Source of the DNA: Rheinheimera sp. A13L
GTDB taxonomy: Bacteria; Pseudomonadota; Gammaproteobacteria; Enterobacterales; Alteromonadaceae
Assembly: GCF_000217935.1 (NCBI RefSeq)
Contig: NZ_AFHI01000008.1
Location: 1 to 64,000 of the forward strand
DNA length: 64,000 nucleotides
Direction: 5' to 3'
Within the stretch, counting starts at the first letter, position 1. Each line of letters opens with the position of its first letter. Shown here piece by piece: positions 1-13,607 of the stretch. The position numbers and the translations under genes are program-made. Under the pieces are notes generated by a model. That model saw only the letters and a program-made list of their open reading frames with translations, did no database searches and was not told the origin of the DNA.

Positions 1-12
1 CGAATACCGGAC

Positions 13-88
13 GTTAACGCTTCAAGAAGGGGCGCGAACATGTGAGCTCGCCGCAACAGAAGGCCTCAAGTGACGCGGCTTGTTATGT
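13..88 (-). repeat. Integron attC site (end of cassette a)
   Basis: The site runs from a GTTAACG-type element to a GTTATG-type element and contains an imperfect palindrome between them (GGGGCGCG... and ...GACGCGGC). A near copy of both layout and sequence lies at 6242-6318, downstream of the second copy of the same cassette. That pairing of site and gene is what a mobile cassette should show. It is the leftmost attC visible, so the array may continue beyond the window. Confidence 0.7.
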
Positions 89-101
89 TTTATGCTGCAG
101 T

Positions 102-284
102 TCACAAACGATTACTCTTTGCTAAAGACTTTAGTAAGCGCCACTTTGTTACAAGGAAAAATGGCTGTAAAAAAACGAATGTAAACAACCAGACCTTAAA
201 CGAGACCCAAAGATCGTACTGAAACAAATGGATTACCCCTAAAAACAGACATAAAACAAAAGGGGGCATTTCAATCCAAATCAA
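102..284 (-). CDS. Small two-helix membrane protein, cassette a (shortened copy)
   Basis: This 60-residue frame encodes a protein with two hydrophobic stretches and a basic C-terminus (ending LAKSNRL). It is almost identical to the cassette gene at 6332-6547, and the whole cassettes are clearly two copies of one unit. In this copy a CAA codon of the longer version has become TAA, and the upstream GTG is lost. Only a TTG at 284 or the internal ATG at 269 can start it. Either the true start is internal in both copies or this copy is decaying. The function is unknown; proteins of this kind are common as integron cassettes. It lies between attC sites 13-88 and 327-401. Confidence 0.5.
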   Translation of the reverse strand: MIWIEMPPFVLCLFLGVIHLFQYDLWVSFKVWLFTFVFLQPFFLVTKWRLLKSLAKSNRL

Positions 285-326
285 AGCTTAGAAAAACTGT
301 TTGCTAAACAATTGCCCCTCTCAAAC

Positions 327-401
327 ATAACGATTACGCTAAGGGGCTGGCTTTTGCCTGTCCCCGCGAGTAAAACGTGAGACTTCAGCGCCTTGTTAGC
401 G
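327..401 (-). repeat. Integron attC site (end of cassette b)
   Basis: The site is bounded by ATAACG on the left and GTTAGCG on the right. Internal complementary blocks (AAGGGGCTGGC... against ...GCGCCTT) allow a folded hairpin. It lies immediately downstream of the stop of the 266-residue gene and upstream of cassette a, as expected for cassettes read on the minus strand. Confidence 0.75.
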
Positions 402-1202
402 CTACATGCGAGGCCCACCTGGGCCATCATTACGAGGTTCAGTCTTAACAGCAGGCCCAGGCTCGTTAGGTGTTGTCAGTCTTTCATAAAGATTTTTATT
501 TATAAATGAGTTATCGATCTTTGGCTCTAGGGTTTTCATTTTGGCAACCGCGGCATTTATAATAATTAATGGTCTATCTACGCCGTGTGACAATTTTTTT
601 ATTTCATCGACTGATTCTTTTCTAAAATCCAAATGCATGCCGAGTAAATTATTACCTAAAGATTTTACCCAGAGATCACCATAGTGGTGCAGCACTCGCC
701 CTGAATTTGATGCTAATTTAGCTTTTTCCAATTCGTCGACAAGTGCAGTTGGGACTGCAGAGGCACACGCTTTTTGCTCTTCAAGATCTACATCATAAAG
801 CAATACATTGCTAGCGTGTGTCTTTGAAATTATGTTGGCAAGTTGTTCTTGCTTGATTGATGTAAAACCTTTCGGGTTCCATTTGTCATCAAAAAACTGT
901 CTCTTAGCTTCGTAAAATGCAACTCCCTCAACAAAGCGGTCACTTGTAACCCAAACTTTTACTATTACTGCTATATCACCAAAACTTGTTTCCGGCGTGC
1001 CTTTTAGTTTAAAGCCTTCCCACCGTACTTTTTGAGCCTTGTCAATCCAATCTATTTCTAGGCCTAAGCTTTCAATGGCTTCCATGACTTTAGTCGTTAT
1101 ATGATTCTCATTCCATCCGCCGAGGTGCTGGCTATTGAAGCAACTAACTAGCGCTTCATTTATTTTGCTATTTGCCTCATTCAACCAGTCTTGATATTTC
1201 AT
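402..1202 (-). CDS. Cassette b protein with PD-(D/E)XK nuclease-like motif
   Basis: The protein is 266 residues from the ATG at 1202; a TTG at 1217 is the only longer option. I do not recognise the family. Residues 74-100 show an aspartate in a hydrophobic strand (GDIAV, D76), then 21 residues, then a YEAKR strand (E98, K100). That is the D-x(n)-E-x-K spacing of PD-(D/E)XK nucleases, and a Gln/Glu-rich helix follows (KQEQ, about 117-120). The last 25 residues are Pro/Gly-rich and look disordered. The gene is a complete integron cassette between attC 327-401 and attC 1236-1358. A nuclease or defence role is inference from the motif only. Confidence 0.7.
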   Translation of the reverse strand: MKYQDWLNEANSKINEALVSCFNSQHLGGWNENHITTKVMEAIESLGLEIDWIDKAQKVRWEGFKLKGTPETSFGDIAVIVKVWVTSDRFVEGVAFYEAKRQFFDDKWNPKGFTSIKQEQLANIISKTHASNVLLYDVDLEEQKACASAVPTALVDELEKAKLASNSGRVLHHYGDLWVKSLGNNLLGMHLDFRKESVDEIKKLSHGVDRPLIIINAAVAKMKTLEPKIDNSFINKNLYERLTTPNEPGPAVKTEPRNDGPGGPRM

Positions 1203-1235
1203 GTCAGCCTTATGCAATAGTTTGAGGGTGCTAAC

Positions 1236-1358
1236 CCTAACGCCAAGTTAACCGGCAGAACGGAGCCGGCCTGCCGGCGGAGTGGTTTGCAGCGGGGTGT
1301 AAAATTTGCGAAGCAAATGCCCCGCTGCAAACTGTCCGCGTTGAACGCCTGGTTAGGC
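1236..1358 (-). repeat. Long integron attC site (end of cassette c)
   Basis: The site is bounded by CCTAACGCC on the left and GGTTAGGC on the right. It is unusually long, about 120 bp, and folds strongly: GTTTGCAGCGGGG pairs with CCCCGCTGCAAAC, and ATTTGC pairs with GCAAAT at the tip. The stop codon of the 102-residue gene (1353-1355) lies inside the right core, which is typical of cassette genes. Confidence 0.8.
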
Positions 1359-1661
1359 ATTACGAACATCGCTAGAAAGCAGCTCTATCAGTTCTGCCCA
1401 AACCGGCTGAGACCAGTGAGATACATCGACATCTTTGAAAGCTATTTCGGCAGCCCTCAAAAACGTCACGAATTCGTCTTTAGGTGAATCGATAAGGCTA
1501 ATGAACATCATGCCTTCATGATCGTACGGACGATAGATATTTTCCATGAATGAAGAATCTCTATCGCGAAATCTTTTTCGAATCTCTTCAATGATGAATT
1601 CAAAGCCTCCGCTACTAAGCGGCACCCCGGTCTTTTCAGATATTAAAATTGTACCAGCCAT
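1353..1661 (-). CDS. Hypothetical 102-residue protein, cassette c
   Basis: I do not recognise this protein. It is soluble, mixed alpha/beta in appearance, with no signal peptide or membrane segment; the central part reads FIIEEIRKRF and the C-terminal part is helical (WAELIELLSS). It is the first cassette after the attI-like leader at 1669-1958: the ATG at 1661 follows the GTTAGGC core by only seven bases. This would be the best-placed cassette for expression from a leader promoter. Confidence 0.65.
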   Translation of the reverse strand: MAGTILISEKTGVPLSSGGFEFIIEEIRKRFRDRDSSFMENIYRPYDHEGMMFISLIDSPKDEFVTFLRAAEIAFKDVDVSHWSQPVWAELIELLSSDVRNA

Positions 1662-1668
1662 ACTAATT

Positions 1669-1958
1669 GCCTAACAATTTAATAGAAGGGTTTCTGCCCG
1701 CAAGTCGAACATTTTTACGCCTTCTTTCCTGAATTCAGCTCATACCACGCTAAAGCTAATGTACCTAAATTTCAATAGATTTTTCTGATATCACTAAATT
1801 TGCGTGCGAAAAAATTTATACAGGCAGTAAGCTAGCAGTTCTCGAATTTACTCAAGCTGGATAATTGGAAATTTATCCAGTGGTTTGGGCTAATAAATGG
1901 ACGGACTATATAGGGATTTAACACAACACCGAATTTCCGCTTTTGGCACAAAACAACT
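1669..1958 (-). other. attI-like integron leader, copy 1
   Basis: On the minus strand this stretch ends in GTTAGGC (1669-1675), the recombination core that precedes the first cassette. There is no second half-site or gene upstream, which is how attI differs from attC. The roughly 290 bp match the region 8139-8430 over nearly their whole length with scattered substitutions, and both copies sit directly before a first cassette. umuC ends about ten bases beyond the leader, where an integrase gene would normally begin. Calling it attI is inference from position and the shared core. Confidence 0.6.
1747..1775 (-). promoter_or_regulatory. Candidate cassette promoter in leader 1
   Basis: On the minus strand TTGAAA is followed after 17 bases by TAGCGT. 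The equivalent place in the second leader has TTGAAA, 17 bases and TAGTTT. The conserved spacing and orientation toward the cassettes fit a Pc-type promoter, although the -10 box is weak here. Confidence 0.35.
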
Positions 1959-1969
1959 CTAATTATCAG

Positions 1970-3247
1970 CTACCTGACTCTGGGTAGAGCATTCCAACTA
2001 GTGGTAAAAGCAGGCGACAACAGCTCTCGCTTCATTCCCCAGGACTGTTTGGTGCCTTTGCTAGCGAAGTACAGAGAGTTGGGCATTTGCTCGTTGATTT
2101 GGTCCATTAGCCCCATTAATGCAGAGTTACCCCGCACTGTGTCGCTGGTGGCGAATAAGTCTTGCTGGCATACACCATGGGCATAGAAGTCTGAAAGCAT
2201 GACTCCCGCCTTGGCATACCGAAAACCGTCTTTCCAAATGGCATCCAAAAGCTTACTGGCTGCATGCAGAAAATCGCGGGTATCGTCGGATGGGTAGCTT
2301 AGTTCTGCACTGCGGCTATTTGAGTAGTAAGGGTCTAGCTGATGATCACTAAAGGGGCTAGTTCTTAAAAAGACACTGATACGTTTCGCCTGGCAGCGCT
2401 CTTGCCTTAGTTTTTTACAGGCCCTATGCACGTATTCAGATATGGCTTCGTGCATTGCAGCCAGCTCTGTGACTCGCTCACCAAAGGCTCTTGAGCTGAC
2501 AATCTCTTTTTTTGTCGGCGGTATGTCTTCAAGCTCAATACAGGATTCACCGTTCAACTCCATCACTGTGCGTTCGACCACCACTGAAAATTGCTGGCGT
2601 ATCAGTTTTGTCGGTGCATCAGCCAAATCCAGTGCCGTATGAATACCCATCACTTCCAGCCGCTTAGTGAGCCTGCCACCAATACCCCACACTTCGTTGA
2701 CAGGCAATAAGGCCATCAACTTGCGTTGCCGTTCCTTACTGGTTAAGTCCACCACACCACCCGTTTTAGGCCATGATTTAGCGCCATGGTTAGCAAGCTT
2801 TGCCAAGGTCTTAGTTGGCGCTATCCCTACACAAACACTAATCCCTATCCACTGCTGAACACGCTGACGAATCTGATGACCAAAGTCTGTCAGGTTGAGT
2901 GCACTGGCTATCCCTGATAAATCCAGAAAAGCCTCGTCTATGCTATACACTTCAACAGCCGGAGCCATTTCTTCTAAAGTGCGCATCACCCGAGCTGACA
3001 TGTCGGCATAAAGTGCATAGTTAGACGAAAAAGCCACCACATTGTTTTTCTCTAACAGCTCCCTGATCTGAAACACCGGAACACCCATTTTTATGCCCAT
3101 AGCCTTGGCTTCTTTTGACCGAGCTACTACACACCCATCGTTATTAGACAGCACCACCACAGCGCGGTTAATCAAATCAGGGCGGAACAGCTTTTCGCAT
3201 GACGCATAAAAGTTGTTGCAGTCCACCAAAGCAAATACACGACTCAT
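1970..3247 (-). CDS. umuC: DNA polymerase V catalytic subunit UmuC
   Basis: This Y-family translesion polymerase is 425 residues, close to the E. coli length of 422. The N-terminal palm carries ALVDCNNFYASCE (metal-binding D9) and the YSIDEAFLDL motif with D104 and E105. A helix-hairpin-helix region (about 187-200, VNEVWGIGGRLTKRLE) and the little-finger domain follow. It forms an operon with umuD, whose stop lies one base upstream of this ATG. UmuC with processed UmuD bypasses lesions during the SOS response, at the cost of mutations. The gene lies between two integron cassette arrays, so this copy is probably accessory. No damage to the frame is visible. Confidence 0.95.
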   Translation of the reverse strand: MSRVFALVDCNNFYASCEKLFRPDLINRAVVVLSNNDGCVVARSKEAKAMGIKMGVPVFQIRELLEKNNVVAFSSNYALYADMSARVMRTLEEMAPAVEVYSIDEAFLDLSGIASALNLTDFGHQIRQRVQQWIGISVCVGIAPTKTLAKLANHGAKSWPKTGGVVDLTSKERQRKLMALLPVNEVWGIGGRLTKRLEVMGIHTALDLADAPTKLIRQQFSVVVERTVMELNGESCIELEDIPPTKKEIVSSRAFGERVTELAAMHEAISEYVHRACKKLRQERCQAKRISVFLRTSPFSDHQLDPYYSNSRSAELSYPSDDTRDFLHAASKLLDAIWKDGFRYAKAGVMLSDFYAHGVCQQDLFATSDTVRGNSALMGLMDQINEQMPNSLYFASKGTKQSWGMKRELLSPAFTTSWNALPRVR

Positions 3248-3248
3248 A

Positions 3249-3692
3249 CTACTGCGCTCTTTTTGAACGGGTCATCTGCCTGACAATGTTGGTGACTACA
3301 CCGAATAGTGCCAACTCAGCATCATCAGTAAAGGTGATAGGTGGGTAGGCTTTATTGCGTGGTATTAATTGCACTTCAGGCGTCAATGCCAGTTCTTTCA
3401 CTGTAAATTCGCCATTAACCTGAGCGATCACAATATCGCCATGCTGTGGTGTGACCGAGCGGTCTACCACCAGGATATCGTCAGGATGAATACCCGCATC
3501 AATCATTGAATCCCCTTCAACCCGAACAAAGTAGGTTGCTGCAGGTCGCTTAATGCAAAGCTCGTTTAAATCCAGCGTTTGCTCTACATAGTCCTGTGCA
3601 GGCGAAGGGAAGCCAGCAGGGATTTTGCTCTGGTATAGGGGAATGCTGTAGTGGGTAGTAGGTTCTGCGAACCCTATAAACTGAATTGTCAT
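3249..3692 (-). CDS. umuD: UmuD, self-cleaving subunit of DNA polymerase V
   Basis: This LexA-like S24 peptidase is 147 residues. The cleavage junction Ala26-Gly27 (KIPAGFPSP), the catalytic serine S62 (GDSMIDAG) and lysine K99 (FTVKEL) are all present. RecA-stimulated cleavage gives UmuD', which joins UmuC. The gene starts 13 bases downstream of a perfect-ended LexA box, so it should be repressed by LexA until DNA damage. It is followed directly by umuC. Confidence 0.95.
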
Positions 3693-3704
3693 AACACCAA
3701 AATA

Positions 3705-3720
3705 CTGTATATAAACACAG
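3705..3720 (-). promoter_or_regulatory. LexA box (SOS operator) of umuDC
   Basis: The 16-bp sequence CTGT-ATATAAAC-ACAG has the full CTGT/ACAG half-sites of the gammaproteobacterial LexA consensus with an AT-rich centre. It lies just upstream of umuD. The same class of site precedes lexA at 37136-37151 in this window. Confidence 0.9.
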
Positions 3721-4022
3721 TTAATGATCGCTGATTTTTACGGAATGTCAATCGTGGTTGCTAAGCCTTAGAAAAGCGAAGGCCGCCAACGTACACTTTG
3801 CCACTTCCTGCCAGAAAACAAAGGTTATCACTGACGGCCCACACTCATTGAGATTATTCAGATATTTATTAACTAATCAACGGATCCATCTCAACGCTCA
3901 TGAATCATGCAGTCAGTAAAATTCACTGCTTGCAGGTTCCGGCTGGCTTGGGGTTTTTACGTCAGCTCCTGTAAGGGAAGCATATTAATGTGGATTTAGC
4001 AGAGGTCTTAATTTTGTCGAGA
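3721..4022. other. Non-coding stretch between umuD promoter and the end of array 2
   Basis: About 300 bp with no convincing gene. The right part must contain the end of the split cassette gene's unit, but I could not find a clear attC there, only scattered TTAAC- and GTT-like words. The left part carries the umuDC promoter region. Confidence 0.5.
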
Positions 4023-4336
4023 TCAGAGATTGGAGTAAGCCAGGCATCGGTATAGGCCTGAAGAAACGTTAAACCCCGTAGTGAAATAATGTATAAAGGC
4101 TGGCATAGCTATCTCTCGGTGTTTATGCCAGTTTTTATCTAATCCCCGTAACAGTTGACTTTTTTGAGGGAAATACGCCAATACATATTTATTAAATATC
4201 TCATTTAGTAAATTAATAAGCTGAGTATTCTTCCCTTCATCCAAGGTTTTTGGTTCACTTGGTTCAGCTTGAATGCAAGCGATTCCAAGTAGATACATGC
4301 CCTGCCTTAAGGGGGAACTTAAGTGAACTTTATCTA

Positions 4337-5492
4337 AATAACTGTTCCGTTTAATAGATCACTTGCGGAAGGGAACTCAATGCGGTTTACGCGATCTGAT
4401 CAGTCGCCAAACAAAACCAAAGACACCAACCGCATTGAGTATGAATACGTTACCATTTTTTACACCACAGACGCTGTACCGCCTGAAAAAAATAGTGCAA
4501 TGGAACCCAAACAGGCCACTGGCTCGCAGAGCAAACGCCATTTTGTTGTGGGCTCAGGGGAAACCCAAAGCTGAGATTGCCAGATTGCTACAGGCTGCAA
4601 GATCCAGTGTAAATCGTTGGATTAAGTGGTATCTCGCTGATGACCTTGATGGGTTACAAGCAGATATGCCTGGGAAGAAAGTGCGTTTTCCACCGACATT
4701 TATCGGTGAGTTACTTAAGCTACTTATCAGTTTCAGGCCACAGAATTTTGGCTACCAGCGTTCACGCTGGAGCAGTGAATTGCTCAGTATCGTTATTCGT
4801 GAGGCGCTGAACATTGTGGTTCATAGCTCGACTATCCGGCGCTGGCTACCCAAGCACGGAATTGTCTGGCGACGTGCTGCACCGACATTGCAGATAAAAG
4901 ACCCGGATAAAGAGACAAAATTAGCAGCGATAAAACAGGCACTTGCAGCCTGTGACGCGGAAAATCCAGTCTTCTATGAAGATGAAGTGGATATCCATCT
5001 AAATCCGAAAATTGGTGCTGATTGGGGATTGCGGGGCCAACAACGCAAAGTCGTCACACCGGGACAGAACAAGAAACACTTCCTGGCAGGTGCGCTGCAC
5101 AGCAGTTCAGGCCAGGTGACCTATGTGGGCTCAACGTCTAAAAATACAGTGCTGTTTATCGACTTACTCAGAGCACTGCGCAGGCGCTACAGAAGTGCCA
5201 AAACCATTACGTTGATTGTTGATAACTACATCATTCACAAAAGTAAAATCGCAGAGAAATGGCTGAAGAATAACCCGAAATTCAAGCTCTTGTTTTTGCC
5301 TGTCTATAGCCCGTGGCACAACAAAATCGAGCTGCTGTGGCATTCGTTGCATGAAACCATCACCCGGAATCATACGTGCCGGTCGATGGATGAATTAATG
5401 GAACGGGTAGAGCATTTTATGGACACGGTTTCACCCTTCCCGGGTGGTGGGCATGGGAGCAAGCGGGTGTAGCATTATTAGGATCAGTTATT
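4337..5492 (+). mobile_element. IS630-family insertion sequence with TA duplication
   Basis: The ends AATAACTGTTCC (4337-4348) and its complement at 5481-5492 form terminal inverted repeats with one mismatch in twelve. They are flanked by TA at 4335-4336 and 5493-5494. The flanks read CTA on the left and TAG on the right, so the target was CTAG, a known preference of IS630-type elements that duplicate TA. The element is about 1156 bp and carries one transposase. Its host gene is restored in frame when the element is removed in silico, which confirms the borders. Confidence 0.9.
4441..5472 (+). CDS. IS630-family transposase
   Basis: The protein is 343 residues from the ATG at 4441. The N-terminus is a helix-turn-helix of the Homeodomain-like/winged type (NAILLWAQGKPKAEIARLL). 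The C-terminal half is a DDE domain: FYEDEVDI supplies the first acid, LIVDNYIIHKS the second, and YSPWHNKIELLWH the glutamate. These are the hallmark motifs of IS630/Tc1-mariner enzymes, which cut and paste at TA. No frameshift is visible, so it may be active. An upstream in-frame start at 4363 exists but lacks a better ribosome site. Confidence 0.92.
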   Translation: MNTLPFFTPQTLYRLKKIVQWNPNRPLARRANAILLWAQGKPKAEIARLLQAARSSVNRWIKWYLADDLDGLQADMPGKKVRFPPTFIGELLKLLISFRPQNFGYQRSRWSSELLSIVIREALNIVVHSSTIRRWLPKHGIVWRRAAPTLQIKDPDKETKLAAIKQALAACDAENPVFYEDEVDIHLNPKIGADWGLRGQQRKVVTPGQNKKHFLAGALHSSSGQVTYVGSTSKNTVLFIDLLRALRRRYRSAKTITLIVDNYIIHKSKIAEKWLKNNPKFKLLFLPVYSPWHNKIELLWHSLHETITRNHTCRSMDELMERVEHFMDTVSPFPGGGHGSKRV

Positions 5493-5654
5493 TAGTTGGT
5501 TGTGGTTAAACTTATGTTGTTGCATCCAGACAAAATTAACAAGACTTTCTAATGAAAGCTCTTGAGTAACTCTTTTTAACTTTGCAATTTGTGCCAACAA
5601 TTCTTTATGGAGAGTAGTATGCATAAATCCCTTTGATGACAGTATTCTTGGTAG

Positions 5655-5738
5655 GCCTAACGCCCGCAGCATGCGGGGCTTTGCAGTGATGGCGAAGCCG
5701 CAACGAAAAAGCCGTCGCTATGGCTGCGATTGTTAACT
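5655..5738 (-). repeat. Integron attC site (end of cassette g)
   Basis: The site is bounded by GCCTAACGCC on the left and GTTAACT on the right, with a foldable centre (GCAGC...GCTGC and AAGCCG...). The TAA stop of the cyclotransferase-like gene (5733-5735) lies inside the right core. On the minus strand the next cassette begins TTAGGCC, as cassettes do. Confidence 0.8.
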
Positions 5739-6227
5739 GTATATTGCACGTTCTTTTGCATCTCTTTCTGTATCAGGGTCTTCCTTGCTCTTTGTAGCTG
5801 ACAAGGTATCTAGGTAGTCTGCTGGAACCCCTGTTTCTTTCGCACCATATATAACGTGATATAGATACCAAGAGTAAGGCAGCAAAGAAGAATCCGTATT
5901 TGTTGCATAGTATGTAACAGCTTCTGCGGCATTGCCCTGAGCATCATTTACCAAGACCTGTTTTTGCTGATACCCATAACCCAATCCTTCAGCTCTATCG
6001 AGCGCGCCTTTATCGTAGTTTGATATTTCGAACAGTGCGCCAACTATATAATCACTGGGATTTCTGGTGAATAGCGCATCGCATTTCCCCGATCCATCTT
6101 TTTTACTCACCTTATGGAACCGGAGCGAATGTTCAGAAAGCTTAAACACACCTATTCGCACAGCACTTGGGACCCTTTCTTTAAGCCTTGGCAGTGACAT
6201 ATTTGATCCGTAAGCAAAATATTTCAC
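5733..6227 (-). CDS. Gamma-glutamylcyclotransferase-like (AIG2/GGCT fold) protein, cassette g
   Basis: The 164-residue protein begins FAYGSNMS, the substrate-binding YGSN loop of the GGCT/AIG2 fold. The acidic residue E80 in LDRAEGLG is at the place of the family's catalytic glutamate. Family members release 5-oxoproline from gamma-glutamyl peptides or amines, but the substrate cannot be read from sequence. It is a cassette between attC 5655-5738 and attC 6242-6318, soluble and without signal peptide. Confidence 0.85.
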   Translation of the reverse strand: MKYFAYGSNMSLPRLKERVPSAVRIGVFKLSEHSLRFHKVSKKDGSGKCDALFTRNPSDYIVGALFEISNYDKGALDRAEGLGYGYQQKQVLVNDAQGNAAEAVTYYATNTDSSLLPYSWYLYHVIYGAKETGVPADYLDTLSATKSKEDPDTERDAKERAIYS

Positions 6228-6241
6228 GGTGTCTCCATACA

Positions 6242-6318
6242 GTTAACGTCCCGCGCATGCGCGCGAACTTGTGAGCATCGCAGCAGCCGAAGGCTGCAAA
6301 TGGCGCGGCTTGTTATGT
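6242..6318 (-). repeat. Integron attC site (end of cassette f)
   Basis: The site runs from GTTAACG to GTTATG with a central palindrome (CGCGCATGCGCG and CAGCAGCC...GGCTGC). It resembles the attC at 13-88, which follows the other copy of the same cassette gene. Confidence 0.75.
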
Positions 6319-6331
6319 TTTATGGTGTAGC

Positions 6332-6547
6332 TCACAAACGATTACCCTTTGCTAAAGATTTTAACAAGCGCCACTTTGGTACAAGGAAGAATGGCTGTAA
6401 AAAAACGAATGTAAACAACCAGACCTTAAACGAGACCCAAAGATCGTACTGAAACAAATGGATTACGCCTAAAAATAGACATAAAACAAAAGGAGTCATT
6501 TCAATCCAAATCAAAGCTTGGAAAAACTGTTTGCTAAACAAAGGCAC
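6332..6547 (-). CDS. Small two-helix membrane protein, cassette f
   Basis: The 71-residue frame starts with GTG at 6547 and contains two hydrophobic segments (about 18-37 and 45-60) and a basic tail. Nearly the same sequence lies at 102-284. An internal TTG or ATG (the M of EMTPF) could be the real start, and no strong ribosome site separates these choices. No function is known to me. The cassette sits between attC 6242-6318 and attC 6557-6609. Confidence 0.55.
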   Translation of the reverse strand: MPLFSKQFFQALIWIEMTPFVLCLFLGVIHLFQYDLWVSFKVWLFTFVFLQPFFLVPKWRLLKSLAKGNRL

Positions 6548-6556
6548 CTCTCAAAC

Positions 6557-6609
6557 ATAACGCCCAAAGCAGCTGCGCGGTAGGCGTCGGCCGCCTTTGT
6601 TTGTTATAC
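6557..6609 (-). repeat. Short integron attC site (end of cassette e)
   Basis: The site is about 53 bp, bounded by ATAACG and GTTATAC, with AAAGCAGCTGCGCGG / GGCCGCCTTTG forming the imperfect stem. It follows the TIR gene's stop by only a few bases. Confidence 0.75.
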
Positions 6610-6613
6610 CAAT

Positions 6614-7483
6614 TTACATGTTGTAATACTTGGTTCCAAAGCTCACCGAAAGTGGAGCTCCGTCATACAAGCAGCTAGCAGTAACCTTTATTCTCTTTTT
6701 GTGATCATAATAAGTATGGAAATCAGTTTTTTTCCTAACGAGTTCTAATTCATGAACCCCTATACTTAAAGCGCCTAATAAAGCTTCACTGTTGAATTCT
6801 GTACTTTGAGAGTGTGGTGCAGTTTTCAATAAATCCACCTCAACGAAACTTACAAAATTTCCTTCACCCCAAAGAACCATTTTGCAATGTTCACTTTCAA
6901 CAATTATGTTCCGTGCTTCATTTGCTTTTACACCAACAACTTTTTCCACGTCAGGTATGGTCATGCCAAGATATTGATAAGGCCTATGGAATGGTGCCGA
7001 CATAATTGGCAAGCCGACCATATTTGCTGAGTCTAAAGATCGTCCTAAGCTAGAACCGTCTCTAGGTGATACAACATTTTTATTAAAAACTATACCCATA
7101 CTGGTAATAAGTCTTTTTAATTCAATGTTGTATGATCCAATTTTTGAAAAATTACTATATAGCTTACCTATCAAGAAACTAGGCAGCTCAACCTCTTCAA
7201 GAATTATGGGCAGTATTTTTATTTTTCCTGCAATCTGATAATTCATTGCAACGTCAAGTTCATTTTCTACCCAAGGTGCTTTAACTGAATTATTTGAAAG
7301 AATTACAGCAAAATAATCAACGTTATCAATCCCCTCTCTAATTTTTTGAATTAGGGAATCGCCAATCTTCATTTCCGCTTCATCTAACCAAACCCTAATT
7401 CCATGACTTTCAATATCAGAGGCCAGTCTTCTAACAAAATCCTTATCTTTGTGGTTATGGCTTAGAAATACACTAATGCTCAT
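6614..7483 (-). CDS. TIR-domain protein with an unrecognised C-terminal domain, cassette e
   Basis: The protein is 289 residues from the ATG at 7483, which follows an AAGGAG site by five bases; a GTG at 7489 is less well placed. Residues 1-115 are a TIR domain: SVFLSHNHKD at the start, VWLDEAEMKIGDSL (BB-loop region), and W71-V-E-N-E75, where the glutamate four residues after tryptophan matches the catalytic position of TIR NADases. Residues about 160-289 form a second domain I do not recognise (WGEGNFVSFVEVDL, then FHTYYDHKKRIKV). Bacterial TIR proteins often deplete NAD in phage defence; the role here is inference. It is an intact cassette between attC 6557-6609 and attC 7499-7575. Confidence 0.88.
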   Translation of the reverse strand: MSISVFLSHNHKDKDFVRRLASDIESHGIRVWLDEAEMKIGDSLIQKIREGIDNVDYFAVILSNNSVKAPWVENELDVAMNYQIAGKIKILPIILEEVELPSFLIGKLYSNFSKIGSYNIELKRLITSMGIVFNKNVVSPRDGSSLGRSLDSANMVGLPIMSAPFHRPYQYLGMTIPDVEKVVGVKANEARNIIVESEHCKMVLWGEGNFVSFVEVDLLKTAPHSQSTEFNSEALLGALSIGVHELELVRKKTDFHTYYDHKKRIKVTASCLYDGAPLSVSFGTKYYNM

Positions 7484-7498
7484 AGACACTCCTTATTG

Positions 7499-7575
7499 GT
7501 ATAACGCCTCAATAACCGGCGCAGCTTTGCTGCGTCCGGCGCCTGAAAGGCGCGTAGTTGATTGACTTGTTAGGA
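7499..7575 (-). repeat. Integron attC site (end of cassette d)
   Basis: The site is bounded by TATAACGCC and GTTAGGA. The centre is a strong palindrome (GGCGCAGC-TTTGCT-GCGTCC), and GGCGCC-TGAA-AGGCGC adds a second stem. The TAA stop of the 187-residue gene (7570-7572) lies in the right core. Confidence 0.85.
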
Positions 7576-8133
7576 GTATAAGCCTGACTCATTTCTATAT
7601 TTAACAGTAATCATTGATGCTGGAATTGTACCTCGGTAAAAATACCAGTGAGGAGCAATAGGCTGGTTACTGTTAATTATCCTTTTTGCTTCTGCGTCTT
7701 GAGCATCATTCGGCCCCCCAATTGGAAATCTTGCACTAGCTAAGCCAGCTGCTTTGAACAAGACTTTTTTTGTTTGATTGTGCTTAAGTCGTTCTAGAGC
7801 AAGATCTATAAAAGAATCGTAGTCCATCAAATTAGGATCATGCTGATCGATTTCTATCTCCAGAGCTACTTCGGTTTGATCGAATAACTGCAATTCTCTG
7901 CAGGGGGCTAATCCTGAGATTAAATTGGGATAATGGCCTGCCATAAAATCAAACTGAGGCGAGATATTTTCAACAAGCTTTTGCCCAGTTATTAGTCCGT
8001 TATCGTTTGGATCTAACAATGAAGTTAATGAAACAAAAATATTATTTAATCCAAATGGGGCGATCCCTGCCAAAATGCCTTGCTTGAGAATGCCATCTAC
8101 GGCGCCCCTTCGTGTAAAGTGATAAAACTTCAT
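7570..8133 (-). CDS. Cassette d protein with ADP-ribosyltransferase-like N-terminus
   Basis: The 187-residue protein opens with KFYHFTRRGAVDGILKQG. This H-F-T ... I-L-x-x-G pattern is shared by DarT-like and other small ADP-ribosyltransferase-fold proteins, where the histidine contacts NAD. The rest is not recognised, and I see no clear catalytic glutamate motif, so the assignment is tentative. It is the first cassette of array 2; its ribosome site, TTAGGAG, is part of the recombination core itself. No membrane segment or signal peptide is present. Confidence 0.75.
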   Translation of the reverse strand: MKFYHFTRRGAVDGILKQGILAGIAPFGLNNIFVSLTSLLDPNDNGLITGQKLVENISPQFDFMAGHYPNLISGLAPCRELQLFDQTEVALEIEIDQHDPNLMDYDSFIDLALERLKHNQTKKVLFKAAGLASARFPIGGPNDAQDAEAKRIINSNQPIAPHWYFYRGTIPASMITVKYRNESGLYS

Positions 8134-8138
8134 GAAAC

Positions 8139-8430
8139 TCCTAACAATTTAATAGAAGGTTTTTCGCCCACAAGTCGAACATTTTTCTGCCTTCTTTCCT
8201 GATTTCTACTCATACCAAACTAACGCTGATGTACTTCTATTTCAACAGGTTTTTCTGAAATCAGTAAATTTGAGTCCGACAAAATTTATACAGTCAGTAC
8301 ACTAATTGTTCTTGAATATACTCAAGCTAGACACTTGGGAATTTATCCAGCGGTTTATGATAGTAAAAGAAGTGATGATCAGGTATTTACTACAACGCCG
8401 AATGTCAGCTATTGGCAGATAACGCCGTTT
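8139..8430 (-). other. attI-like integron leader, copy 2
   Basis: On the minus strand it ends in GTTAGGA, directly before cassette d. It matches leader 1 (1669-1958) from the shared CTAACAATTTAATAGAAGG edge through ATTTATCCAG and on to the ACACCGAAT/ACGCCGAAT segment, with many scattered substitutions. The copies have therefore been separate for some time. No integrase lies next to it; hslR follows on the other side. Confidence 0.6.
8217..8245 (-). promoter_or_regulatory. Candidate cassette promoter in leader 2
   Basis: TTGAAA and TAGTTT are separated by 17 bases on the minus strand and point at cassette d. The same -35 box and spacing are kept in leader 1 although the sequences between differ. 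Confidence 0.4.
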
Positions 8431-8614
8431 TGTTTGAGATTAATTTCTGTGACGCATAGAGTTATGAAAGTCGAGTTGAGGATGGAAAGAAAAGCATCGT
8501 TGCCAATTCGTGTATGCAATCCTACAGCAAGTCGAAATCACTCAAAAAGTCATCATCATGTATAATCAATTCATACTTTTGGTAGCAGGCCTTGGCATCG
8601 CTTTTCGAGGACTT

Positions 8615-9013
8615 ATGAGTAAAGATAATGTTGATTCGGTTCGCCTGGACAGTTGGGTGTGGGCAGCGAGATTCTATAAAACCCGGACTTTGGCAAAAAG
8701 CATGATTGAGGGTGGTAAGGTCCAATATAATGGGCAGCGCTGCAAAGCGAGCAGAATGGTTGAAGTTGGCGCGATCATTAGACTCACACAGGGTACTGAT
8801 GAAAAAACAATTATTGTAAAAGGTTTATCAGACAAACGGCTTGCTGCCCCCCTCGCTCAGGCGTTATACGAGGAAACCAGCGAAAGCCAAACTTTACGTT
8901 TGGAGCGGGCCGAACTTCGAAAAATGAACAACCTTTTCGCTCCACATCCTGATACCAAGCCTGACAAAAAAATGCGGCGACAATTGTTGTTACTTAAATC
9001 GCAGCAATCATAA
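8615..9013 (+). CDS. hslR: Heat shock protein Hsp15 (HslR), island-borne copy
   Basis: The 132-residue protein has the S4 RNA-binding domain (VRLDSWVWAARFYKTR, then GGKVQYNGQRCKAS) and the basic HPDTKPDKKMRR tail of Hsp15. It matches the family length (133 in E. coli). Hsp15 binds 50S subunits that carry stalled nascent chains and helps recycle them. The ATG at 8615 is preceded by GAGG. A second, 5'-truncated hslR follows at 9268 and differs from this one at many third positions and some residues. This copy is therefore a xenolog that arrived with the island and probably replaces the lost function. Confidence 0.9.
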   Translation: MSKDNVDSVRLDSWVWAARFYKTRTLAKSMIEGGKVQYNGQRCKASRMVEVGAIIRLTQGTDEKTIIVKGLSDKRLAAPLAQALYEETSESQTLRLERAELRKMNNLFAPHPDTKPDKKMRRQLLLLKSQQS

Positions 9014-9106
9014 TCGGCTTCAATTTCAGATGTGATGGGTTTTGAGCTTTTTTGGACCTTTGGTCTGGAAAATCACTTTGAGTCCAAGGCATAAAAACGC
9101 GAATTT

Positions 9107-9249
9107 TGTATCCTTAATGCTGGAATACCTACTCAACAACGCTTGAAATAAATGTATCCTAAAAAATGTATCCATTTTTTATCTGTAATGCGTCGATTAA
9201 CGTTAATATTTACTTAACTTTTGGCTTTACAGGTCTTTAAGTGGATACA
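9107..9249. repeat. Four TGTATCC heptamers at the island's right end
   Basis: TGTATCC occurs at 9107-9113, 9153-9159 and 9167-9173, and its reverse complement GGATACA at 9243-9249. All lie within 143 bp between the intact hslR and the truncated hslR. Clustered short repeats with the last one inverted near the junction look like recombinase or transposase binding sites at the end of a mobile element. The element type is not identified. Confidence 0.5.
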
Positions 9250-9264
9250 TAATTAGAAACATAT

Positions 9265-9624
9265 AAGTGGTGGGCTTGTCGCTTTTACAAAACCAGAGCC
9301 CTGGCAAAAGACATGATCGAAGGCGGAAAAGTTCATTATAATGGCCAGCGCTGTAAAGCCAGCAGAACAGTGGAAGTTGGAGCAAGCATTAAACTGACAC
9401 AAGGCACAGACGAAAGAACTGTGATTGTGATGGCCTTGTCTGAAAAAAGGCTGGCTGCGCCTTTGGCACAAGCTCTGTATCAGGAAACAGAAGAAAGTCA
9501 GAAGCTGAAACTGGAACGAGCTGAATTGCGTAAAATGAATTTGCTGTTTGCGCCTCATCCGGACACCAAACCTGACAAAAAAATGCGTCGGCAGTTGCTG
9601 CTGATTAAATCACAGCAATCCTAG
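9265..9624 (+). pseudogene. hslR: Resident hslR, 5'-truncated by the island
   Basis: The frame is homologous to Hsp15 from the KWWACRFYKTRALAK segment to the end, so about 13 N-terminal codons, the start codon and the promoter are missing. Upstream in-frame codons belong to unrelated DNA. It is followed after 16 bases by hslO, the usual hslR neighbour, which identifies it as the resident copy. Translation could start at the ATG 9313, but that would remove the first part of the S4 domain. Confidence 0.85.
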
Positions 9625-9640
9625 GCCCTAAGGTAATGTT

Positions 9641-10489
9641 ATGAATCAAGATGTTTTAGTACGTTTTTTATTTAATCAACGCGATATGCGCGGCGAAATC
9701 GCCTATGTTTCTGACAGTTTGCAACAAATGCTGCAAAACCATGATTACCCTTACCCGGTGAAACAATTGCTGGCTGAACTGGTGGTTGCAACCAGTTTAC
9801 TGACCGCCACCTTAAAACTGGACGGCGATATAGCTGTGCAGTTGCAAGGGGATGGCCCTGTACGTTTTGCGGCGGTGAATGGCAGTGCAGAGCAGGAATT
9901 CCGCGGTGTAGCGCGGCTGCAAGCGGAAATTGGTGCCACAGGTTTTCGTGATCTGATAGGTGAAGGTTATATGCTGGTGACTATTACGCCTAAACAAGGC
10001 GAACGTTATCAGGGCATTATCCCTCTGACCGGCGACAGCCTGACCGACACCTTAGAAGCTTATTTTGCGCAGTCTGAACAACTGCCCACCCGTTTATATC
10101 TGTTCACTGATCTGACCGAAAATCAAAGCCGCGCTGCTGGTTTGTTGCTGCAGGTGTTGCCTGTTGATCCGGAAAAAGCCAAACAGGACTTCAGCGATCT
10201 GGTGATAGTAACAGACACCATCACAGCCAATGAATTGCTGAACTTACCTACAGAACAAATGCTGCACCGTTTGTATCATGATGAAGAAGTCGAAGTATTT
10301 CCGCATCAGGCGATACGTTTTGTCTGTGGTTGTTCACGCGAAAAATGTGAATCAGCCATCATTAGTCTGGGCAAAACAGCCATCGAAGAGCATATAGCAG
10401 AAGGCAAACTGGAGATCAGTTGTGACTACTGCAACAGCACTTATCAATTTGACAGCGCTGAATTATCCTTATTATTGAATAAGTTTTAG
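9641..10489 (+). CDS. hslO: Redox-regulated chaperone Hsp33
   Basis: The 282-residue cytosolic protein holds unfolded proteins during oxidative stress. Its zinc centre is visible at the C-terminus: CGCSREKC (about 229-236) and CDYC (about 261-264). Oxidation of these cysteines switches the chaperone on. It lies downstream of hslR as in E. coli, with the two genes probably co-transcribed before the island broke hslR. Confidence 0.95.
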   Translation: MNQDVLVRFLFNQRDMRGEIAYVSDSLQQMLQNHDYPYPVKQLLAELVVATSLLTATLKLDGDIAVQLQGDGPVRFAAVNGSAEQEFRGVARLQAEIGATGFRDLIGEGYMLVTITPKQGERYQGIIPLTGDSLTDTLEAYFAQSEQLPTRLYLFTDLTENQSRAAGLLLQVLPVDPEKAKQDFSDLVIVTDTITANELLNLPTEQMLHRLYHDEEVEVFPHQAIRFVCGCSREKCESAIISLGKTAIEEHIAEGKLEISCDYCNSTYQFDSAELSLLLNKF

Positions 10490-10500
10490 TAAAAAGCTTG

Positions 10501-10531
10501 CAGTAGGGCAGAGTGCATCTCTGCCCTACTG
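10501..10531. terminator. Strong hairpin after hslO
   Basis: CAGTAGGGCAGAG and CTCTGCCCTACTG form a perfect 13-bp stem with a 5-base loop 11 bases after the hslO stop. There is no T-run on the plus strand, so it is either a non-canonical terminator or a repeat-derived palindrome. Confidence 0.45.
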
Positions 10532-10702
10532 TGGCTAAAACATTTCTGTAACCCATCTCGTAACCTTTCATTTTTCCATGAAATTTCCAACAAAAGCCGT
10601 TATTGCTGGATGTTTTGGCCATCCAAATGGAGTACAATCGGGCTGAACCCTATTAAAAACCATAAATTTACTGACCTACGTACCTCAAGGAGTCACCCTA
10701 CA

Positions 10703-12244
10703 ATGACCTCTACAATCACCCGCCACATTGATTTAACAGTGGCCGATTTAGTTGAACACGCTATTCGTCGCAACGAAGGTGTATTAGCGGATAACGGCGC
10801 TTTGGTGGTTAAAACCGGTCACAGAACTGGTCGCTCACCTACTGATCGTTTTATCGTTAAAGAAGCCAGCACAGAGCAGGATATTCAATGGGGCAACGTT
10901 AACCGTCCTTTTGATCCGGTGCAGTTTTCTGCGCTTTGGGCTCGTGTCAGCGATTTTATTGCGACCAAAGAACATTTTGTCTCTCACCTTGAAGTAGGTG
11001 CAGACCCGGAACACTACATTCCGATGACAGTGACCACTGAAACCGCATGGCAGCATATTTTTGCCAAAAACATGTTTATTACTCCTGCTCAGTGGAACAC
11101 ATCAGGCAAAGAAACCTGGCAAATTCTGAACGTACCTTCGTTTGAATGTAACCCTGAACGTGACGGCACCAACAGTGACGGTACTGTGATGATCAACTTT
11201 GCAGAGCGCAAAGTGTTATTAGCTGGCATGCGTTATGCCGGTGAAATGAAAAAAGCCATGTTCTCAGTACAAAACTTCCTGTTGCCAGCCAAAGGCGTAT
11301 TGCCAATGCACTGTTCGGCCAACGTAGGCGAAGCTGGCGACACCACCTTATTCTTTGGTTTGTCAGGCACTGGTAAAACAACCTTGTCTGCTGACCCTAA
11401 ACGTTTCCTGATTGGTGATGACGAACACGGCTGGGCACCAAACTCTGTGTTTAACATCGAAGGCGGTTGCTACGCTAAATGTATCGACCTGTCGAAGAAA
11501 AACGAGCCTGTGATTTGGGATGCGATCCGCTTCGGTACTATTCTGGAAAACGTAGTATTAGATGCTAACCGTACTCCGGATTACAAAGACGCCAGCCTGA
11601 CGCAAAACAGCCGCGCTGCTTATCCGTTAGCTCATGTGGAAAAACGTGTGCTGGAAAACCGTGCCGGTGAACCTAAAGCTGTTGTTTTCCTGACCTGTGA
11701 CGTCAGTGGTGTATTACCACCTGTCTCTATACTGTCAGAAGAAGCTGCTGCTTATCACTTCTTAAGTGGTTACACAGCCAAAGTAGGTTCAACCGAGATT
11801 GGTTCAACATCTGCTATTGAATCTACTTTCTCTACCTGTTTTGGTGCGCCGTTTTTCCCACGCCCAGCTGGTGTATATGCAGAACTGTTGATCAAACGTG
11901 TACGTGAGTTCGGCAGCAAAGTGTATTTAGTTAACACAGGCTGGACAGGTGGTCCACATGGTGTTGGTACACGTTTTGATATCCCAACAACACGCGGCAT
12001 TATCGACGCTATTGTTTCAGGCGAATTAGCCACTGCTGAAACTGTGCACTTGCCAGAGTTAAACCTGAATGTGCCGTTGAAAGTAACAGGTGTGGACAGC
12101 AACTTGCTGAACCCAAGAGACACCTGGGCTGATAAAGCGGCTTATGATGAATATGCCACTAAACTGGCTACTGAGTTTGCTAACAACTTTAAGAAATACG
12201 ATGTATCTGATGCAATTCGCAACGCAGGTCCAAAAGTAGCTTAA
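10703..12244 (+). CDS. pckA: Phosphoenolpyruvate carboxykinase (ATP)
   Basis: The 513-residue enzyme converts oxaloacetate and ATP to phosphoenolpyruvate and CO2, the first committed step of gluconeogenesis. The phosphate-binding loop [16 protein letters not shown] and the GDDEHGW metal-binding segment are present, as is the substrate motif GRSPTDRF. The ATG 10703 is chosen because of the AAGGAG upstream and the family's usual N-terminus; the longer frame from 10610 has no ribosome site. Confidence 0.97.
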
Positions 12245-12264
12245 TGCTTTGATTTGATTTGATT

Positions 12265-12292
12265 AAAAAGGCTCCCAATGGGAGCCTTTTTT
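12265..12292. terminator. Bidirectional terminator between pckA and envZ
   Basis: AAAAGGCTCCC-AAT-GGGAGCCTTTTTT is a GC-rich stem with A- and T-runs on both sides. It can end pckA on the plus strand and the ompR-envZ transcript on the minus strand, since the convergent genes end 22 bases before it and at its edge. Confidence 0.9.
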
Positions 12293-13607
12293 ATGCAGTT
12301 TTAGTTTGATTCACCGGTAAATACACTGTCACTACCAAGCCACCATAAGCATGGTTATGCATACTGATTTGACCATGGTGCATATCCACAATCTTTTTGA
12401 TAATAGCTAAACCTAAACCTGAACCTCCGCTGCCGCGGGCTGTATCCCCTTGGGCAAAAGGCTCAAACATACGCTGCATTTCATGTTCAGGAATACCAGG
12501 GCCATGATCCCGCACCTGCACATAGACCTTACGGCTGGCACGTTCTACACCAGTACTGACCTCAATCACACCTTCTGAATACTTCAGTGCGTTTTCTATC
12601 AGGTTATTCAGCACCCGTTTGATGGCAATACGGCGCAGCGGCACCAGCGGTATTTGCTCATTCAGGTTGGCAATAATCTCACGTTTTTGCAGCCGATCAG
12701 CGCTGATCTGCTCCTGCACCAACAGATTTAAATCTTCTTCATCCAGCGCTTCTTCTTTGTGATGGCGAATGTAGTCAATAAACTGATCGATAATAGCGTT
12801 CATATCTTCGATATCACTGACAATACCGTCTTTGATCCAGCTGTCCTGCTCACTGACCATCTCGCTGGCTAAACGAATACGGGTTAACGGAGTGCGTAAG
12901 TCGTGCGACACCCCAGCCATTAACAAAGCCCGGTCTTTTTCCAGTTGACTGATACCCTTGGCCATACGGTTAAAAGCCTGAGTTACAGCGATAATTTCGG
13001 TAGAGCCGTGCTCAGGCAGAGGGTCTGGCATTTCGCCCCGCCCTACTTTGAGAGCCGCCTGCTGTAAACCCTGCAAAGGCCTGTTCAGTTGCCGCGCAAA
13101 TAACCAGCCGCCAGCCACACTTAAAAAGCCGATCACAAAAACATAGATCTTCAGCGGAGAAAAATCGGTTTCGTCCAGGCCACTTAAAGGTACTTTGACC
13201 CAATACTGCGGAGCCTGCGGTGGCTTCACCCAAAAGGCATAACTGCTTTGCTGAGCAATACGTACTTCTGCAGGACCTCCCAGTTCCAGTGACATTTCCT
13301 CAGAAAAATACTGGTAAAAGCTGGCTTCGTTTAAGCCATGTAAAGGCGCAGTCGCATCGGTATAAACTTCTATGCCTGTGGCTTGCTGGAATCTTCTGGT
13401 CAACTCTTCCGACAGCAGCACCTCGTTGTGCTCCACGTCGATAAACACCACTTTAATTTGCTTGGCGATCAGATGGTTAATTTGCTGATAGCTGGGCTTA
13501 ATCACGTAATAAACCACGGATAAATAAGACACCAACTGATTAATCAGCAATAAAATACCAATCAGAAATACTGTCTGACCAAAAGCGCTGCGCGGAAACA
13601 AACGCAT
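12291..13607 (-). CDS. envZ: Sensor histidine kinase EnvZ
   Basis: The 438-residue inner-membrane kinase has two membrane segments (about 12-34 and 152-171) around a periplasmic loop, a HAMP domain, the phosphoacceptor box [18 protein letters not shown] (His about 239), and the ATPase motifs [10 protein letters not shown] and [12 protein letters not shown]. It phosphorylates OmpR in response to osmolarity or envelope cues. It is the second gene of the ompR-envZ operon: its ATG follows the ompR stop immediately. Confidence 0.95.

Follow-up and report, generated by a model that had tools for sequence, protein, structure and literature searches.

A probable hslR substitute carried by an integrative element inserted in hslR of Rheinheimera

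Described elements that carry a copy of their target

Replacement of an interrupted target gene by a copy carried on the inserting element is already known (for bcp, recA and a staphylococcal target-gene-like gene). Tn6283/SE-6283 of Vibrio, a strand-biased circularizing integrative element (SE), is described as inserting in bcp and carrying a bcp homolog (PMC5991714, PMC9345347), and the module of SEs is given in the order catalytic, non-catalytic and catalytic recombinase followed by a small protein (PMC10214605). The recA mobile element (RME) of Vibrio cholerae S24 is reported in recA; it has umuDC and, at its other end from the integrase, a recA of its own that is divergent (PMC4405046). 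GInts are described as site-specific elements with a four-gene ginABCD module at one end, whose excision is compatible with 6-nt staggered cuts (PMC5385486), and the staphylococcal Tn552-II (of Tn554 type) as carrying a target-gene-like gene and bringing donor att to its right end (PMC12486829). The initial annotation of the DNA studied here had mentioned such a strategy for some integrative elements at other genes, and the published cases of Tn6283 in bcp and the RME in recA bear it out.

The locus described here lies in the window (the whole stretch of 64,000 nucleotides from Rheinheimera sp. A13L that was analyzed). If the functional class is taken to comprise elements that contain an intact homolog of the gene they interrupt, then the hslR element belongs to it. 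As far as Tn6283/SE-6283 is described (PMC5991714, PMC9345347, PMC10214605), the two share a four-gene operon in the order given above for SEs, insertion within a gene, a carried target homolog and a 6-bp spacer signature; they differ in target (hslR, not bcp), in protein sizes, and in the position of the copy, which in the hslR element is at the far end from the operon, whereas the bcp copy of Tn6283 follows srap (by locus tag). Sequence comparison was made with the SE of pAQU1, the only SE compared: the IntA pair scored 9.7 bits and all other equivalent pairs 1 bit or less or were unlisted, while hhalign gave a probability of 40% for IntA and <1% for the other equivalent pairs. Assignment to the SE class by sequence was rejected against this SE, and on these comparisons we class the hslR element as SE-like, not as an SE. 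By description, the RME has the same layout and umuDC, with another target. In GInts, unlike here, it is ginA and ginB that have the integrase core while GinC is without the first arginine (PMC5385486): in the hslR element the motif is in the first and third proteins, and the GInt order as described (catalytic, catalytic, third protein without the first Arg, HLH protein) is not found. The available passages of the GInt description (PMC5385486) mention no carried target copy. Tn552-II, as described, likewise carries a target homolog, but has a three-gene tnpABC module and another target.

Among mostly open-access literature searched by gene name, no report of such insertions in hslR, dinB or dGTPase was found among the papers listed; a published Vibrio parahaemolyticus island has dGTPases as content, and the available part of its description does not mention its target. 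The present analysis adds one recombinase family with carried copies of five different target genes, and substitute hslR and dinB lineages separate from those of the residents. This makes testable why integrases can afford conserved coding sites, by what route substitutes are gained, and whether elements can exchange a host's DNA polymerase IV, or its anti-phage-type dGTPase, for a version of their own. For annotation, it accounts for some pairs of intact and truncated genes at island borders and provides a simple rule for finding island ends.

The hslR element and its junctions

Our hypothesis is that an integrative element in the heat-shock gene hslR brings a substitute hslR of its own lineage, so that the insertion is tolerated: we place the probability of this reading at about 0.87. 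According to this hypothesis, the window from position 1 to ~9266 is the right part of the element, and a four-gene recombinase operon at the left end would insert it at a fixed site between codons 18 and 20 of hslR. Insertion would cut hslR-hslO off from its promoter and remove the hslR start; the complete hslR just inside the right end, pointing in the same direction, would then supply Hsp15, which serves in heat stress and in recycling of 50S-peptidyl-tRNA, and probably restore transcription into hslO.

Data are the positions in the window of features of the element and of adjacent host DNA, with strand and supporting evidence.
Feature	Position	Strand	Evidence or remark
umuC	1970..3247	-	NF002955, 612.8 vs 431
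umuD-like S24 peptidase	3249..3692	-	PF00717
DDE/HTH transposase inside island	4363..5472	+	PF13358, HTH_23
AIG2/GGACT-family gene, probably cassette	5733..6227	-	domain match
TIR-domain gene, probably cassette	6614..7489	-	PF13676; PADLOC PDC-S66, ThsB-like
Gene without family match at 0.001, probably cassette, adjoining attI-like stretch	7570..8133	-	
attI-like stretch	8142..8308	.	86% identical to DNA just upstream of integron integrase on contig C17
Region 5' of carried hslR, common to the W122 element	8399..8614	+	sequence comparison (similarity from 8399)
Carried intact divergent hslR (Hsp15), 132 aa, inside right end of island	8615..9013	+	carried-clade tree, dN/dS
Right subterminal region, several TGTATCC/GGATACA words, ending ...GGATACATAATTAGAAACATATAA	9014..9266	.	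sequence comparison
6-bp spacer GTGGTG in attR	9267..9272	.	unlike attB of L042 (GCTGTG, retained at attL)
Resident hslR remnant	9273..9624	+	codons 1-19 missing, also two bases of codon 20
Host hslO (Hsp33), following hslR	9641..10489	+	PF01430

The initial annotation had placed an intact but divergent hslR just inside the island, and this holds: the reading frame matches the Hsp15 model NF007673 of NCBIfam above cut-off (160.7 vs 148) and has 71% nucleotide identity to the resident over 118 codons, with synonymous change saturated. From its end to the start of the resident remnant there are 259 bp; the last bases belonging to the island lie at ~9266 and host sequence resumes at 9273. The remnant is truncated at the border as annotated; the estimate of about 13 lost codons, which fits the shorter N-terminus of the carried hslR, is too low, the loss being 19 codons plus two bases when measured against the empty site of a close relative (L042). 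This relative is 94.5% identical to the window from 9270 to 13000 (the query end), and upstream of hslR has gspC- and gspD-like genes (identified by eye) where the window has the island.

The matching left border is outside the window, on contig C46 of the same genome: C46 holds L042-like upstream genes and the first hslR codons; this host sequence stops at the point from which the right border continues it (3 bp are common to both sides), and the element lies beyond. The element is split over two of the 71 contigs of this genome, and its size is at least 18.2 kb (~8.9 kb on C46 plus ~9.3 kb in the window, with an unassembled gap between them). Islands entering hslR at the identical codon, as the initial annotation envisaged, are present elsewhere. 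hslR is split at this codon in Rheinheimera sp. W122 (G008; contigs C59/C329, the window genome having C46/C64), and a third insertion, seen at its right border only, is on contig DLGS01000311 (L040), the taxon label of which (Bacteroidetes UBA7688) is probably a binning error. On that contig the Rheinheimera-like end of the hslR element stands beside a GGDEF/EAL-type gene (by eye). Entry at one codon is thus found in at least three assemblies, with leftward cargo differing between them. Two hslR matches occur in only 2 of the 60 genomes searched (window genome included), namely the window genome and W122, where the host base from which the second copy continues is identical.

An artefact of assembly or binning that joined unrelated contigs might be suspected, given the 71 contigs of the window genome and the fact that W122 and UBA7688 are MAGs. 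The right junction is nevertheless common to three assemblies, and eight further family members each show the two borders, the copy and the interrupted gene together on one contig (G063, G072, G177, G213, G882, G906, G086 and G118): an artefact is most improbable.

Two attL, three attR and one empty site (that of L042) were available for comparison of the junctions. The empty site reads GATAAATG-GCTGTG-GGCTTGTCG; in the window genome attL reads ...GATAAATG-GCTGTG-AAGTATGTAGCTGTATCC, with the identical spacer, and attR ...GGATACATAATTAGAAACATATAA-GTGGTG-GGCTTGTCG. The attL spacer of W122 is GCTTTG, and the attR spacers of W122 and UBA7688 are AGCGTT and CCAATA. Six bp of attB stay at attL, and a different 6 bp stands at attR. 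In SEs the attR spacer is described as deriving from the donor site (PMC9345347): if this rule holds, none of the three hslR insertions would have had a different hslR site with GCTNTG as spacer for its immediate source. We infer mobility via a circle with a 6-bp spacer. Inward of the spacer, the right subterminal region is conserved (91% in W122 and 70% in UBA7688).

Four genes, overlapping or closely spaced, adjoin the left border on C46 and encode proteins of 413, 756, 926 and 169 aa. The first protein, a tyrosine recombinase, reaches 22.9 bits on Pfam Phage_integrase, below the cut-off of 27.1, and its HxxR box is present in 13 of 14 members examined (the exception is G063). In the third, R461, H694, R697, H722 and Y731, which we take to be the full catalytic set of a tyrosine recombinase, are invariant across 13 members. 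The second protein, which is recombinase-like, shows no HxxR in 7 of 14 members, the window element included; matches in the other seven are scattered, with three close relatives sharing one near residue 422-431, and this protein would appear to be non-catalytic. Gamma-Mobile-Trio islands are marked by GmtX/GmtY/GmtZ proteins; for proteins 2-4 of the operon NCBIfam gave no family, and for protein 1 only generic tyrosine recombinases below cut-off.

Farther into the island, the cargo in 1-8308 resembles a minus-strand integron cassette array with attC-like ends (by eye), and a second attI-like stretch (1672-1859) is 79% identical to DNA upstream of the C17 integron integrase. No integron integrase was found on the part of the island seen, nor after the attI-like stretch at 8142-8308. 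umuC and the umuD-like gene are also island cargo. Placement of hslR by an integron integrase was considered and rejected: the two integrases of the genome that exceed cut-off are on C17 and C38, and the hslR junctions are, by eye, unlike attC/attI. The transposase among the cargo is presumably IS630-like, and the TIR-domain gene is a candidate defence gene.

Lineage and selection of the carried hslR

A prediction concerns the ancestry of the two hslR genes. If the adjacent copies arose by tandem duplication within the genome, followed by truncation of one – and two hslR-like genes side by side in the same direction would suit such an origin – then they should group together. In a protein tree of 48 rows they do not: the three carried copies (window, W122 and UBA7688) form one clade (support 99/98) and the residents fall elsewhere, that of the window nearest to L042 and G012 and that of W122 nearest to G009. 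Saturated synonymous change between the copies also speaks against duplication, as do the coincidence of the truncation point with an element border whose counterpart is on C46, and the 99% identity of the carried protein to the copy in another genome's element. The separate clade and the saturated sites together exclude a recent in-genome duplication, and we consider a tandem origin extremely unlikely.

The substitute reading further predicts that carried copies are maintained. Among the three, dN/dS is 0.029, 0.073 and 0.076, which indicates purifying selection; this range (0.03-0.08) and the intactness of the gene lead us to infer that the carried hslR, which would be expressed, functionally rescues the cell. 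The resident remnant differs from L042 by only 2 non-synonymous changes and so would be either recent or still in use. The region 5' of the carried gene may hold its promoter; a promoter scan around the gene gave 4 matches vs 3.2 in shuffles (no excess). Between the carried hslR and hslO, 0 terminator-like sites were found vs 1.3 in shuffles: since the carried gene points toward hslO, read-through into hslO is plausible. No close relative of the carried hslR was found on plasmids, where 32 of 72,556 records match, all with <60% identity. Recoding of the carried gene to escape its own recombinase was rejected: 15 of 36 positions around the site differ between carried and host copies, but a difference at least as large is seen in 63 of the 358 windows along the gene.

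Relatives of the recombinase and the genes they interrupt

That the island carries a replacement for the gene it breaks, as first annotated, gains support from relatives of the recombinase, which carry intact copies of other interrupted genes. When the third protein or its profile served as query, members of the family turned up in 18 of 393 relatives (14 with full-length proteins, 4 with proteins of 672-717 aa) and, within the family-level taxon, in 28 of 395 genomes (full-length in 22, proteins of 653-717 aa alone in 6); the 653-717 aa proteins, matched by profile A1 in these six genomes, might be GInts. In a class-wide sample the profile found 1 of 369 (the own genome) and a single-protein query 2 of 369, of which the additional one matched over part of its length (3.2e-4), and among plasmids the family was found in 3 of 72,556. 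Around G046 it was found in 0 of 4 genomes and around G339 in 1 of 24 (G339 itself); no Vibrionaceae or recA elements were reached.

With the short proteins left out, 27 elements were counted (23 in 22 genomes, G339 and three on plasmids). The order of the four genes is identical in all 27; the first gene of G823a is split between two frames, and ~1.2 kb separates the second and third genes of G795. For each element the gene at the left border was compared with the cargo, and the rest of that gene was sought downstream where sequence had been fetched. An intact copy of the interrupted gene was found in 14 of the 27 (dinB 6, dGTPase 4, hslR 2, yrfG 1, LPD1 1), which is a lower bound for copy carriage, as ~3 to 60 kb of cargo were read per element. 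The hslR pair is the window genome and W122; the UBA7688 contig would be a fifteenth case but shows no operon.

Each of the dinB elements (G063, G072, G177, G213, G882 and G906) has an intact, divergent dinB inside, with the first codons of the interrupted gene (K-I/F-I-H-I-D-M-D-C) at the left border and the remainder at the right. In G063 and G177 no more than ~180-250 bp lie between the intact dinB and the truncated resident after it, which is the hslR layout of the window. A 99/99 branch separates the carried dinB of five elements from all five residents; the carried side of this tree, from which G063 was left out, includes the G079 dinB, and the five carried genes alone have support of 83/79. 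The dGTPase elements with a copy are G086 and G118, with both borders seen, and G110 and G772, with the left border only; here the carried copy is beside the recombinase operon and not at a border. The left border of the yrfG element (G339) has the gene from about codon 19 and an intact yrfG follows the operon, an N-terminal yrfG fragment (13 aa, E 0.005) being 47 kb away. The element in an LPD1-domain gene (G907) was seen at its left border only. One further dGTPase insertion with both borders seen (G828) has no carried copy: a copy is therefore not obligatory. The target is likely and the copy unassigned in three elements (G823b in dGTPase; G870 and G079 in dinB), and nine are without an identified target (G074, G092, G115, G762, G795, G823a and plasmids pXY8M38-1, H2 and H3). 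The dGTPase-interrupting elements G086, G110, G118, G772, G828 and G823b correspond to loci L161-L164, L158-L159, L183, L184 and L186. In G079 (L169, L170, L217, L218) a stretch of 64 kb has two element-type dinB genes, one of which, immediately to the left of the operon, seems to lack its first codons; these may be stacked elements.

As a control for chance, left flanks of 25 elements (the two hslR elements, with ends on different contigs, were left out) were compared with the cargo of the other elements as fetched up to then. Of 600 pairs, 35 reached 30 bits or more: 12 within one target class, 2 between dinB flanks and plasmid umuC, 18 between the flanks of G079, G870, G828 and G823b (themselves dinB or dGTPase) and dinB or dGTPase cargo, and 3 unexplained (G213/G795, H2/G828 and H3/G074). 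Own flank-cargo pairs reached this score in 6 of 25. The dinB elements' own pairs stay under 30 bits because only ~8-12 recognizable codons remain at the left; these pairs were accepted where both an intact and a truncated dinB were found.

For dGTPase the two genes can also be compared by type. On the NCBI anti-phage dGTPase model (cut-off 400), the dGTPases interrupted in G118 and G828 reach 429.6 and 425.2, even with their N-termini absent, while the carried dGTPases of G110 and G118 score 169.2 and 181.7 on that model and 597.0 and 613.9 on the E. coli-type model (cut-off 405). A single dGTPase model of PADLOC matches both types, with the higher score for the interrupted type (334.2 vs 214.9). 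The typed elements thus appear to carry a type other than that of the gene they interrupt, types being annotation names.

These data also bear on the possibility that the carried hslR is neutral cargo, gained in an earlier host when the element excised imprecisely or recombined at its insertion site, and replacing nothing. A position beside the right border is what capture of flanking DNA would leave, and G828, a bounded element, does without a copy. Yet the hslR copies are intact with low dN/dS, carried hslR and carried dinB are own lineages common to several elements, and the dGTPase copy is next to the operon and, where typed, of another subfamily than the gene interrupted: we regard mere passage as unlikely, while capture may be how the copy was first gained.

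Conserved codons would offer a reliable attachment site. The cuts fall at the IDMD-C-F codons of dinB, in the DMDGT motif of yrfG and at HDIGHPPFG of dGTPase; IDMD-C-F, DMDGT (HAD) and HD..PPFG are, we assume, catalytic motifs. A speculative extension, which we consider possible and rather doubtful, is that the family integrates by gene substitution in general: it would cut highly conserved codons of host genes, where the site is dependable and the gene is killed, and carry dedicated substitutes that diversify with the element, and insertion in dGTPase may in addition inactivate a host defence and leave control of dNTPs in place.

On the third-protein tree the five target classes, as assigned at that stage, need 4 changes, the minimum possible, and none of 200 shuffles was as low; this count left out eleven class-less elements (G063 among them). 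The dinB elements do not form a tight clade but fall into three groups separated by unassigned elements, and a plasmid element not inserted in hslR falls inside the hslR clade. Target and recombinase lineage, as judged from this tree, are associated, loosely.

By IntB, the nearest relative of the window element outside hslR is on plasmid pXY8M38-1 of Shewanella xiamenensis (L155; 82% identity). It is not inserted in hslR, and no hslR is present in the 42.8 kb examined; this plasmid is a possible vehicle. Near its operon are umuDC and restriction-modification genes. On a plasmid of Marinobacter sp. SBY-1 (L181) a recombinase of the family precedes an integron integrase, a pair of class A beta-lactamase genes and qnrVC1.
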